Shown here piece by piece: positions 19,872 to 26,861 of a DNA stretch of 39,268 nt. This stretch comes from an uncultured archaeon (GTDB lineage: Archaea > Iainarchaeota > Iainarchaeia > Iainarchaeales > Iainarchaeaceae). The notes under the pieces were generated by a model that did no database searches, was not told the DNA's origin, and saw only the letters and a list, made by a program, of their open reading frames with translations. The DNA lies in the NCBI GenBank assembly GCA_902386385.1, contig CABMIU010000016.1, positions 1-39,268 of the forward strand. The letters run 5' to 3'. Made by a program: the position numbers and the translations under genes. Within the stretch, counting starts at the first letter, position 1, and each line of letters opens with the position of its first letter.

Positions 19872-20276
19872 TCATTTGAGCAGCGGAAGATCCCCTGAAA
19901 ATTGGTCTATCAGGGAATCTTCCCCGATGGCGCCGATTCCAAGAACTTCGATTTCACTCAGTTTCTTTCCCTTCACCCTTTGGACATATTCATTGTAATC
20001 CGAAGTTGACTGTGCTTCTTTTGTAAAAACCATGAACTTGAGCTTGCGGTTCTTTGCACGCTTCAGAATTTCCAAAAAAGGCTTTGTCTGCTTTTTTATG
20101 AGAATCGGTATTTTTGTAATAGGGATGAAAATACATCCGCTCATCGAATCATGGCCCCTGATTTCTTCCCCGAGCAAATCCTTTTCCCTGTTGAATAAGC
20201 CCGATGCAATGCATGCCGCGGCATTTGCAAGAAGGCCCGGGTTCAGGCCTTCCCGCATGACAATCGCAATTTTCAT
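19872..20276 (-). CDS. DUF2000 family protein (PTH2-like fold)
   Basis: The 134-residue protein begins MKIAIVMREGLNPGLLANAAACIASGL, the DUF2000 pattern that resembles peptidyl-tRNA hydrolase 2. The next blocks, SGCIFIPITKIPILIKKQTKPFLEILKRAK and KFMVFTKEAQSTSDYNEYVQRV, also fit. The function of the family is unknown. I chose ATG 20276 because a TTTAAATG box on this strand is about 35 bases away, while the ATG at 20309 overlaps that box. The gene is AT-rich, divergent from the ACT-domain regulator, and the two share an intergenic palindrome. Confidence 0.72.
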   Translation of the reverse strand: MKIAIVMREGLNPGLLANAAACIASGLFNREKDLLGEEIRGHDSMSGCIFIPITKIPILIKKQTKPFLEILKRAKNRKLKFMVFTKEAQSTSDYNEYVQRVKGKKLSEIEVLGIGAIGEDSLIDQFSGDLPLLK

Positions 20277-20318
20277 CTGCAAACCAATATAATTCATGTT
20301 TTCCGGCATTTAAACCAG

Positions 20319-20336
20319 ATGTTAAAAGTTTAACAT
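20319..20336. promoter_or_regulatory. Putative operator palindrome between the DUF2000 and ACT-domain genes
   Basis: ATGTTAAAAGTTTAACAT has perfect 8-base arms with a 2-base centre. It lies between the two opposed TATA boxes (about 20311 and 20354), which is where a regulator of both genes would bind. Confidence 0.6.
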
Positions 20337-20348
20337 TTTCATATAATC

Positions 20349-20359
20349 ATTTAAAATAG
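20349..20359 (+). promoter_or_regulatory. TATA box of the ACT-domain regulator gene
   Basis: ATTTAAAATAG is centred about 26 bases upstream of ATG 20380, which points to a leaderless mRNA. Confidence 0.55.
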
Positions 20360-20379
20360 CCAACTAATCAGAAACTGTT

Positions 20380-21039
20380 ATGCCGACAGTCCAGCACCTG
20401 GTAAAAAAGGAACTGGAAAGCAATCCCCTGCTTTTGGATATCCTTCTGCAGGAAATAGCGAACATTAATTCAGTTGCGGTAAAAATGCGCCCTGCAATAG
20501 AGAAGGAACTCGGGAAAAAAGCAAAACTCTCGGCAGTGAGCATGGCAATCCGGAGGACTATTGCGCAAACTGGCTCTGCAAGGATGTTTTCGTGGAAATT
20601 TCCTAAAAATCTTGAAGTTGCGACAAAGTCAAATGTTTACGAGATTGCTATTGAGCACGATTTCGAGCAGGGCGGGATCTTCAATTCAATCAGGAGAAAA
20701 ATAAAGAAAGATTCGGGGTCATTCGTCTCATTCATGGAAGGGACATACGAAACGGTAATAATTACAAATCAGAGGAATAAGTGGCTGGTGAAAAAAGAGC
20801 TTGCCAAAAAGTCAATCACTTCCGAAGAGGGCAATTTAGGGTGTGTTTCAGTCGGCTTTGACAAATCGACAAAAAATATTCCAGGCATTTATTATCAAAT
20901 CACCCGGGCGCTTGCATACAAAAATATACCTATAAATTCATTTTTTACCATAGGCAGCGAAATGGCGGTGCTTGTAAAAGAACAGGACCTTTTGGAAGCG
21001 CACAAATGCATCTCCTCCCTCATTAAAAAAAATAGTTGA
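20380..21039 (+). CDS. ACT-domain putative transcriptional regulator (COG2150-like)
   Basis: The 219-residue protein has an N-terminal helical region (about 1-75: LLLDILLQEIANINSVAVKMRPAIEKELGKKAKLSAVSMAIRRTI) compatible with a helix-turn-helix. Two ACT-like halves follow; the second, CVSVGFDKSTKNIPGIYYQITRALAYKNIPINSFFTIGSEMAVLVKEQDLLEAHKCI, is a good match to the amino-acid-binding ACT domain of aspartokinases and regulators. Archaeal proteins of this layout are annotated as predicted regulators of amino-acid metabolism. The divergent DUF2000 gene and the palindrome between them suggest a local, ligand-controlled switch. The AT-rich composition matches DUF2000, so the pair may have arrived together. 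The DNA-binding role is inferred. Confidence 0.7.
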   Translation: MPTVQHLVKKELESNPLLLDILLQEIANINSVAVKMRPAIEKELGKKAKLSAVSMAIRRTIAQTGSARMFSWKFPKNLEVATKSNVYEIAIEHDFEQGGIFNSIRRKIKKDSGSFVSFMEGTYETVIITNQRNKWLVKKELAKKSITSEEGNLGCVSVGFDKSTKNIPGIYYQITRALAYKNIPINSFFTIGSEMAVLVKEQDLLEAHKCISSLIKKNS

Positions 21040-23690: not shown

Positions 23691-23697
23691 GAGGTGA
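23691..23697 (+). promoter_or_regulatory. Shine-Dalgarno site of the S-layer gene
   Basis: GAGGTGA lies 8 bases before ATG 23706, which makes that ATG the start rather than the GTG at 23694, which overlaps this site. Confidence 0.65.
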
Positions 23698-23705
23698 AAC
23701 GAAAC

Positions 23706-26700
23706 ATGAAAGGAATCAACGTCAAAAAGTTGGCTGCAATAGCAACCGGAGCAGCCCTGCTTGGCTCAGCAGTAGCACCAATTGTTTACGCTGCAGTCAT
23801 ACAGAAGACAGATATATACAATGACGACGGAACCCCTAAAGTCAACATTGTTGTAGGGGCAAAAGCCGCGCTCTCAGACGCAGTTTGGGCAGGCAACCTC
23901 GCCGCGAAGATAGCGGAGAAGGCAGCAGTCCAGAAGGACGTCACAGTAGCAGCAGGCTCAGGAACCGGCGGGACAGCAACCGGCTCAATAGACCTCAACG
24001 GCCTTACTGTTGATGTCACAGTCGGCGGAACGGTTTCATACGGCGCAGGCTCGAAGCAATACATAGTTAACCTGAGTTCTGCAGAAGCCACGAGCGGAGA
24101 CAACACTTCGGAAGTGCTGACCGCAATGGACTCATCAGACTCAAACGCATTGACAACGCAGTTGCCGCACCTTGTCAACAAGACAATTACTGTCAAGGTC
24201 AATAACGGTAATCAGTCAAGCCAGACAACGAGCTTGTCTATCAAGGAAATGGTCGGAGTCAATGTTGATGCCAAGTTTACAGGCGCAAGCGACTCAACAA
24301 CCAAGGACTTGGTTGCCAAAATCGGGTCAGGAAAATTCAGCTACAAGACCACGATAGGTTCATCTACCACGGGCTTGACCCTCGGAAGCACATCATTCAC
24401 TGATGACGGCACAAGCAATGTCAAGGTAGTGTTCTTTGGTGAGGAGTATAAGCTGAATAAGGCAACCCTTACCTCGGGCTCAAAGTATGTGAAGCTCGTT
24501 AAGACAACGGCAAAGGAAACTCTCACAGAGGGCCAGGAAGTAGAAGGCCTTGTCGGAGAGAACCTGTATGCCGGAAAAACAATGAAAGTGAAGTTCCAGC
24601 AACTCAGCGCAACAAGCGCGACAGCGACCTACAAGGGTACCTTCAATCTTTATGACCCTGAAGGGAATCTTGTAAGCACACAGACAGTCCTCGCAGGCTC
24701 AAACCTCAGGGATGTATTCCTTGACAGCGCAGGCAATACTGCACTGCAGACCAACCTGTTCGTTGACACAATAGCAAACGCATCAACGACAAACCTCGGT
24801 TATGCAGAAATAACCAAGGGAACGGACACTGTGGAACTGTATGACGGAAAAGAATACCCATATGATTCAACAAAAGCGACTACCACGAAGAGGTATGTGG
24901 CTTACATAACTCCGGGCTCAGCAGACGCAAATTCGCTGTACTCAGTTGAAATAAGGAACAGCGCAGAAGTCTGGTCAACGGCCACAAATGATGGCTATGA
25001 CTTTGGCCCATTGTACCCAACGGACACGACACAGTCTCTCACGGGGCACGCAGCAACCACTGCAACATTCGGGCAGGGCTGGACTGACGGAATCCTCGGA
25101 AAGAACTATGTTTCAGTAGAGTTCGCGGGATTCGAGAACAAGCAAAGCAAAGCCTCGGTTACAATCGGGAAAATAGCCGGCTTGCCAAGCGGAACCAATG
25201 GCGGACTTACCTTCAGGGGAGACAACGATGCGGTGAGGACAGTGCCGTTCTACATCAAGCTGAACGACTACAACACCACATGGGGAAACTTCGACTTCGA
25301 AGGAAAGCCGATATACTATAACCTTAGGTACGGCGCATCCAAGACAGGGACCTACGACTATAATGTCACGGTACATTCCGGTGATGTTGTCAACGGAAGG
25401 GCATGGACGCTGAGCGCGCCCGATGACTCCAACATGCAGTTGAGTATTGACGGTGTTGGCCCTATAAAACAATTTGCGCAGGGCGCTGTCTGGGATACGA
25501 ATGTATTCTCGGTAGACGGTGTGTCCTACAAAGTTGAAGACGCGAATGTTGCGGACGCTACATCAAGGACAATGGTAATATCAGTCGATGCAGCAGCCGA
25601 GTTCAGGCTCAATAACGAGACCGGGACACAGCTGTATGGCACTACGGGGAATGTTGCGGCAGACCAAGTCTATGGTACAATGCTGTTGTCAAATAACAGC
25701 CCATTCGACGCCAATGCAACACTTAACCTCCCAGTGTATACACAGGACTCTTCGAGGCCGGTGTATTATGCTGTAAAATACAACACAACAGCGCAGAAGC
25801 TATTCCTGATGTTGGATGCCCAGAGATTCGGAGCTGGCGCAAGCAACAAAATAAAGGATAGCCACGGCGTAGCCTTCTTGGGTACATATGTCCCGGCAGA
25901 CGACGGAACATACACCGAAGTTGAAGGCTTTGGCACAGCGCCATACGGGGTAGGTGTCGGGTTTGCATATGACACGAACCGCGGAAACGACTTAAACCTA
26001 GATTTCGGCACCCAAAAAACCATGATTGGGTCAAGCGGCTTCGTCTTTGGTCACTATGTTCCAAAGGACAGCGACTACAACAACAGTACGCAGAACAGCG
26101 GTGTATACACCTCTTCGAATGCATACTTCGTTGCACAGTTCGCGGTAGATGACGCAGCAACCTCAGGAACTACCTGGGATTTCAACGCGTTCATCGATGC
26201 AGGAACAGGGGGCAACATAGGCCCGTTCGGCAGCAGCGTATCGAACCTATCAGGGTTCTCGTACGATGTGAAGTATTCTGCCAACACATCCTGGAACCTG
26301 CAGTCAGGTTCAGAATCAACCTACCTGAAGGCAGGGTATTCGGACACAGGCGCCAAGGCATCATTGCTTGATGCAGACGCAGGCGCTTTGTTCAGTCTGC
26401 CACAGGCATCCGAGAAAGTGCTCATAGTCGTAAAGGGCAAGGATGTCACGAGGGAAGTTGCAGGAGACGACATTTTGGGAATACCAGTCGGTGACACCAA
26501 GGAAAGCGCCGGCGGAACCAAAATAACCGTCAAGGCAGTCAAGGGCGGCTCATGCAAAGTGAGCACAGTAAAGGGCGAGCCAGGGGCTTGCACCGCTGAT
26601 CCTGAGACCTATAGGGCACAGGCACCGGTACAGAACCCGCTGGTGTTCCTCGATACTGAGAGCCCGACAGGCACGAATATCGTAGTCGGAGGCCAAATAG

Positions 26701-26861
26701 TGAACAGCCTTGCCGCAAGCCTTGCGGACAGGCTCACGACAGCCGGCCAGAAAGTGGTCGAGGTTGATGCAAGCGGCAACGTCATCGTTGCAGGCTACAC
26801 CGCCCAGGACACTGTCGCCGCTGTGAAGGAACTCATCGACGCGATAGACGGATTCGCATAA
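23706..26861 (+). CDS. S-layer protein (methanococcal-type)
   Basis: The 1051-residue secreted protein probably forms the cell-surface lattice. A signal peptide (MKGINVKKLAAIATGAALLGSAVAPIVYA) is followed by VIQKTDIYNDDGTPKVNIVVGAKAALSDAVWAGNLAAKIAEKA, the N-terminal domain of methanococcal S-layer proteins. The C terminus (GTNIVVGGQIVNSLAASLADRLT through AAVKELIDAIDGFA) matches the paired C-terminal domain. The long middle is rich in Thr, Ser, Asn and Gly with several NxS/T sites for N-glycosylation; only two Cys are present, close together near the end (GSCKV, GACTA). No membrane anchor is visible. Codon choice (many A-ending codons such as GCA, ACA, GGA) differs from its GC-rich-third-position neighbours. 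Repeat copies C and D bracket the gene. Confidence 0.92.
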   Translation: MKGINVKKLAAIATGAALLGSAVAPIVYAAVIQKTDIYNDDGTPKVNIVVGAKAALSDAVWAGNLAAKIAEKAAVQKDVTVAAGSGTGGTATGSIDLNGLTVDVTVGGTVSYGAGSKQYIVNLSSAEATSGDNTSEVLTAMDSSDSNALTTQLPHLVNKTITVKVNNGNQSSQTTSLSIKEMVGVNVDAKFTGASDSTTKDLVAKIGSGKFSYKTTIGSSTTGLTLGSTSFTDDGTSNVKVVFFGEEYKLNKATLTSGSKYVKLVKTTAKETLTEGQEVEGLVGENLYAGKTMKVKFQQLSATSATATYKGTFNLYDPEGNLVSTQTVLAGSNLRDVFLDSAGNTALQTNLFVDTIANASTTNLGYAEITKGTDTVELYDGKEYPYDSTKATTTKRYVAYITPGSADANSLYSVEIRNSAEVWSTATNDGYDFGPLYPTDTTQSLTGHAATTATFGQGWTDGILGKNYVSVEFAGFENKQSKASVTIGKIAGLPSGTNGGLTFRGDNDAVRTVPFYIKLNDYNTTWGNFDFEGKPIYYNLRYGASKTGTYDYNVTVHSGDVVNGRAWTLSAPDDSNMQLSIDGVGPIKQFAQGAVWDTNVFSVDGVSYKVEDANVADATSRTMVISVDAAAEFRLNNETGTQLYGTTGNVAADQVYGTMLLSNNSPFDANATLNLPVYTQDSSRPVYYAVKYNTTAQKLFLMLDAQRFGAGASNKIKDSHGVAFLGTYVPADDGTYTEVEGFGTAPYGVGVGFAYDTNRGNDLNLDFGTQKTMIGSSGFVFGHYVPKDSDYNNSTQNSGVYTSSNAYFVAQFAVDDAATSGTTWDFNAFIDAGTGGNIGPFGSSVSNLSGFSYDVKYSANTSWNLQSGSESTYLKAGYSDTGAKASLLDADAGALFSLPQASEKVLIVVKGKDVTREVAGDDILGIPVGDTKESAGGTKITVKAVKGGSCKVSTVKGEPGACTADPETYRAQAPVQNPLVFLDTESPTGTNIVVGGQIVNSLAASLADRLTTAGQKVVEVDASGNVIVAGYTAQDTVAAVKELIDAIDGFA

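Follow-up and report, generated by a model that had tools for sequence, protein, structure and literature searches.

A conserved palindrome as the candidate operator of a tandem-ACT, probably lysine-responsive autorepressor paired with DUF2000 in archaea

The archaeal lysine regulators LysM, from Sulfolobus, and FL11, from Pyrococcus, belong to the Lrp family, have lysine as an effector and count lysine-biosynthesis genes among their targets (PMC2995911). The locus analyzed here lies in a 39,268-nucleotide stretch of DNA from an uncultured archaeon, hereafter the window, and encodes a regulator resembling LysM and FL11 in being a small archaeal HTH protein with a C-terminal amino-acid sensor. 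While the two Lrp proteins contain a RAM sensor domain, the window regulator contains two predicted ACT domains of the aspartokinase type, and while LysM activates, the position of the window operator suits repression. The DAP route to lysine begins with aspartokinase, an enzyme whose ACT domains are the classical feedback sensor. The window regulator shares with the regulatory domain of this enzyme (3ab4, 3aaw, 2re1) the fold and the order of the two ACT domains, but carries a DNA-binding domain in place of the kinase domain. For archaeal ACT regulators, the nearest catalogued annotation is possibly COG2150, which we take to be a predicted ACT-domain regulator of amino-acid metabolism. Both profile and fold place the product of the partner gene, like Atu0240 (2gax), in DUF2000, and its modelled fold is similar to that of archaeal and eukaryotic Pth2. 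Neither an HTH and tandem-ACT lysine regulator nor a role for DUF2000 was found described in the open-access literature. The novelty would lie in an amino-acid-sensing autorepressor of new construction, HTH plus tandem ACT. DUF2000, a PTH2-fold family without known role, is linked here to a defined regulatory circuit, which gives a first testable hint of its purpose. Gene regulation in the small-genome archaea analyzed here is little known, and the regulator family, its operator, the promoter geometry and the candidate ligand can now be tested in vitro.

From the observed conservation, gene context, predicted fold and promoter geometry, we infer DNA binding, repression, the identity of the ligand and the role of DUF2000. 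The best explanation is probably that the palindrome between the two genes is the operator of an autoregulated repressor, itself likely to respond to lysine, that controls its own gene and DUF2000. The repressor, an N-terminal helical DNA-binding domain joined to two ACT domains of the aspartokinase-feedback type, would bind TGTTA-N6-TAACA, presumably as a dimer. Bound downstream of the TATA box and ahead of the expected transcription start, the repressor would block the polymerase, and in the window a single dimer on the site would close both inward-facing promoters, those of the regulator and of DUF2000. A change in the amino-acid level would make the ACT domains alter binding, and the expression of both genes would change. 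The divergent target would be a lysine-biosynthesis or lysine-export operon in many relatives and DUF2000 in the clade of the window protein.

The regulator and its DUF2000 partner

The regulator gene (20380-21039, plus strand) encodes 219 amino acids. Its AlphaFold2 model, built on 44 sequences (mean pLDDT 89.4), presents four helices, taken as a DNA-binding domain (residues ~1-64), and then two beta-alpha-beta-beta-alpha ACT units (79-140 and 146-217, pLDDT about 90). The gene had been read from the DNA as encoding a possible HTH and an ACT domain, and the model agrees, with an N-terminal helical DNA-binding domain and two repeats of the ACT fold; the single-sequence Pfam match is weak (ACT_7, E 1.6e-4, 21.9 bits, below the 27-bit cut-off). 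In a Foldseek search, all leading matches were aspartokinase regulatory domains (best 3ab4_F, E 2.9e-9), and the list includes 3aaw, which was solved with lysine and threonine. The amino-acid responsiveness proposed earlier gains from these results, since the sensor resembles the ACT domains of aspartokinase and the gene context points to lysine. The identity of an aspartokinase was rejected for this 219-residue protein, which is devoid of an amino-acid kinase domain and resembles the regulatory part only. Membership in the Lrp/AsnC family was rejected on domain content: the model has two ACT domains, and searches of Pfam and NCBIfam with E values up to 1 gave no AsnC/Lrp match. The window genome (G000) encodes a second, distant HTH-ACT protein (G000:C22:6706-7350), without operator. 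One Micrarchaeota genome contains three members of the regulator family (G166:C28, C37 and C14; L123, L124 and L162), of which one is paired with DUF2000 and another is located close to an Lrp gene and an M20 peptidase.

The DUF2000 gene is read on the minus strand from an ATG at 20276 down to 19872 (stop 19872-19874) and encodes 134 amino acids with a conserved start, MKIAIV. It was correctly recognized from the DNA as DUF2000, its product matching PF09391 with an E of 6.8e-23 and 81.5 bits for a curated cut-off of 25. The PTH2-like fold that had been stated for the family is also predicted for this member, its AlphaFold2 model (pLDDT 89.6) matching best 2gax, a DUF2000 protein, and then the peptidyl-tRNA hydrolases 1xty (E 1.2e-5) and 1q7s (E 3.2e-5).

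The DUF2000-operator-ACT arrangement is present in four archaea, namely the window genome, two Candidatus Micrarchaeota (G202, JAUSHJ010000032.1, and G166, JACRGB010000039.1) and one Candidatus Woesearchaeota (JABGUJ010000002.1, with TGTTAAATATTTAACA). The ACT proteins of these archaea group in a single clade with a support of 100 and a long stem (1.7). The window DUF2000 shares 56-58% identity with its three ACT-linked counterparts, versus about 20-26% with other DUF2000, and judged by this identity the ACT-linked proteins are a separate subgroup. DUF2000 is rare (4/143 genomes in one sample and 8/301 in another), and no DUF2000 match was found on plasmids. The recurrence in four genomes, the single ACT clade, the close DUF2000 partners and the rarity of DUF2000 together indicate that the pair behaves as a module passed on by inheritance or transfer. 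The sequence-only reading had proposed a self-contained module and a search for the gene pair and the palindrome in other archaea; the unit does recur, but DUF2000 is not an obligate partner, as most relatives of the regulator have other genes beside them. An obligate DUF2000-ACT system was rejected, most ACT orthologues being without DUF2000 and most DUF2000 copies without ACT. In the Woesearchaeota locus (L232 5663-9749), a polyamine/hypusine group adjoins the module: the ACT gene is followed on the opposite strand by genes for an arginase/agmatinase-like protein, a PLP amino-acid decarboxylase, deoxyhypusine synthase and S-adenosylmethionine synthetase.

Lysine genes beside relatives of the regulator

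In most ACT relatives, the place of DUF2000 is occupied by other genes, often lysine genes. The divergent genes are homocitrate synthase, homoaconitase, LysX, LysY and LysZ in G097; homocitrate synthase, homoaconitase, homoisocitrate dehydrogenase, LysW and LysX in G134, with a similar set in G144 and G145; and LysX-LysY-LysZ with LysJ- and LysK-like genes in G150 and G151. At the same position, G009 carries DapB-DapA-aspartokinase-ASADH, G321 carries LysA (above cut-off), and G167 carries the lysine exporter LysO (PF03956, E 3e-42), while many members of family f48 have a GNAT-like protein together with a DapE/ArgE-type M20 deacylase. The LysX and LysW neighbours score above the profile cut-off; LysW/LysX enzymes can also serve arginine synthesis. 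Away from the ACT gene, the operator has further copies: lysW is preceded by one in G134 and G151, aspartokinase in G152, and both aspartokinase and dapA in G296; in G282, a copy is found 376 nt ahead of an LL-DAP-aminotransferase-like gene. Genes of the AAA/LysW and DAP routes, the two known lysine pathways, adjoin ACT relatives, as do lysA and the LysO exporter, so that one switch is attached to two unrelated lysine pathways and a lysine exporter. The sharing of one regulator by these systems points to lysine as the signal: judged from gene context, it is quite likely the signal of the family and, with somewhat less confidence, that of the window protein.

Lysine genes lie near 2 of the 8 paralogous HTH-ACT loci. 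The lysine context is therefore not unique to the subfamily, and the paralogues are no clean negative control; the wider HTH-ACT family may be lysine-linked. Paralogous HTH-ACT proteins at L037/L167 (G013:C52) and L040 (G009:C45) are found near LysA, DapA, DapB and aminotransferase genes. G047 has a perfect operator and no lysine neighbour, and one ACT subgroup adjoins CTP synthase in place of lysine genes; in L152, L155 and L158 of the subgroup near CTP synthase, the operator stands directly before the start codon (leaderless). In three related genomes (L216 2978, L214 2888 and the L125 7061 region), an exact operator is followed by the gene of a conserved protein of ~400 amino acids with a weak glutamate-cysteine-ligase (GCS2) match, which may be a further member of the regulon. 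At L213 2936 and 4419 and at L215 2797, an operator with TATA boxes lies between a TPR protein gene and an adenylate-kinase-like gene; in G277 this unit occurs twice, in tandem.

The one exact site of the window genome is shared by DUF2000 and the regulator; it is in relatives that lysine genes are found behind the operator. LysA (diaminopimelate decarboxylase) and LysX were not found in the three DUF2000-type genomes tested (G000, G202 and G166), and one or the other was above cut-off in G009, G321, G097, G134, G150, G151 and G167. The lysine-negative genomes are 84-90% complete and close relatives of the window genome without the module also lack lysine pathway genes, which makes this evidence of lysine loss suggestive only. 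DUF2000 thus appears where lysine is probably imported. In a lineage that would no longer make lysine, with DUF2000 placed under an old lysine switch, this protein may have a part in the homeostasis or salvage of lysine or cationic amino acids, and this would be the first function for the DUF2000 family. On a wider scale, we put forward tentatively, at a little under even odds, that an undescribed and widespread archaeal family acts as lysine repressor for both pathways through TGTTA-N6-TAACA and was re-used for DUF2000 after loss of lysine synthesis.

Another possibility, which we consider unlikely, is that operator and autoregulation are the same and that the DUF2000-linked clade senses another metabolite (e.g., arginine, ornithine, threonine or a polyamine precursor) served by DUF2000. 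The long stem of this clade leaves room for a change of ligand, the missing lysine pathway in G000, G202 and G166 would fit such a change, aspartokinase ACT domains also bind threonine according to structure titles, and polyamine-type genes follow ACT in the Woesearchaeota locus. However, these last genes are convergent and were seen in one genome only, and the operator is the same as in the lysine-linked relatives.

The palindrome, its conservation and the promoters

The candidate operator of the probably lysine-responsive repressor is an inverted repeat, ATGTTAAA-AG-TTTAACAT, with no strand of its own, located in the 103-bp region between DUF2000 on the left and the ACT gene on the right. 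Its core, TGTTA-N6-TAACA (20320-20335), is contained in the palindrome ATGTTAAAAGTTTAACAT (20319-20336), whose two 8-nt arms are each perfect around a 2-nt centre, AG. The perfect palindrome announced between these genes by the sequence-only reading is thus where it was placed, but perfection holds for the arms only, the centre being non-palindromic. When the intergenic region was shuffled 5000 times with its dinucleotides kept, 139 shuffles (2.8%) contained an inverted repeat with arms of at least 8, and the whole window contains 15 such repeats. Taken alone, the palindrome is only modestly unusual and constitutes weak evidence. What raises it above chance is that its core has no second exact copy in the 1.09-Mb genome and is conserved before orthologous genes.

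A search with a profile built on five ACT orthologues gave 46 carrier genomes among the 301 of the phylum of G134. TGTTA-N6-TAACA was present with nine or more of the ten core bases before 36 of the 49 orthologous ACT genes whose promoters could be scored, and with all ten in 23. The same match was observed before 7 of 538 control genes, which are the other genes of those loci, and in ~2% of shuffles. The 36 sites comprise 33 distinct sequences, in which the arms are kept and the centre is free. In the window genome, G009, G047, G202 and G166, the single exact genomic copy of the core stands before the ACT gene; in some other genomes, exact copies are also found inside genes or at unrelated genes. 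No good site was found before the ACT gene of G097, which has a full lysine operon, and no exact operator was found at the paralogous HTH-ACT loci. Conservation of the palindrome between relatives had been named beforehand as a point on which the proposal would stand or fall, and it is borne out by these promoters. The site is very probably, on comparative grounds, a conserved operator within an autoregulated switch.

The arrangement of the promoters is consistent with this role. In nearly all ACT-orthologue promoters, a TATA box near the consensus TATATAAAC is located at -13 to -5 of the site. The plus strand of the window reads TTTAAA (20309-20314), CCAGA and TGTTA, which is the family spacing TATA-N5-TGTTA, and a TATA-like box occupies this position in all four DUF2000-linked regions. 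Judged by the family spacing, this TTTAAA, which precedes the operator by 5 nt, is probably the box of the ACT gene rather than that of DUF2000. The minus strand shows the mirror image, TTATAT-GAAAA-TGTTA, whose box (20341-20346), weaker than the plus-strand TTTAAA, is by sequence and symmetry the probable DUF2000 box. The inverted repeat therefore lies between a TATA box and the start of the regulator's own gene, the usual place for a polymerase-blocking repressor, and the regulator is probably an autorepressor.

The earlier reading had two opposed TATA boxes driving the flanking genes, the nearer box for each, with the palindrome upstream of both promoters; the protein would then activate, or repress by covering the BRE. 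TTTAAA does occur on both sides, and distances suit this layout: the second TTTAAA on the plus strand (20350-20355), a possible alternative leaderless promoter, stands 25-30 nt upstream of the ACT start, an ideal distance for leaderless transcription, and the TTTAAA at 20309-20314 stands 33-38 nt from the DUF2000 start. However, the TATA box of the family is constantly 5 nt upstream of the site, on its far side, no consistent TATA was found across the family promoters on the near side, and in the L151-L158 subgroup the operator abuts the start codon, ending 1-3 nt before it, so that we regard this layout as rather improbable. It is considerably more likely that the two boxes were swapped and that each promoter reads inward through the palindrome. 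Finally, although such arms do arise in shuffled intergenic regions, a functionless AT-rich inverted repeat produced by chance is extremely improbable and was ruled out by the orthologue conservation, the genome-wide uniqueness and the fixed TATA spacing. Further along the window, positions 23694-26861 encode a protein of 1055 amino acids whose start (MKRNMKGINVKKLAAIATGAALLGSAVAPIVYA) resembles archaeal S-layer proteins.
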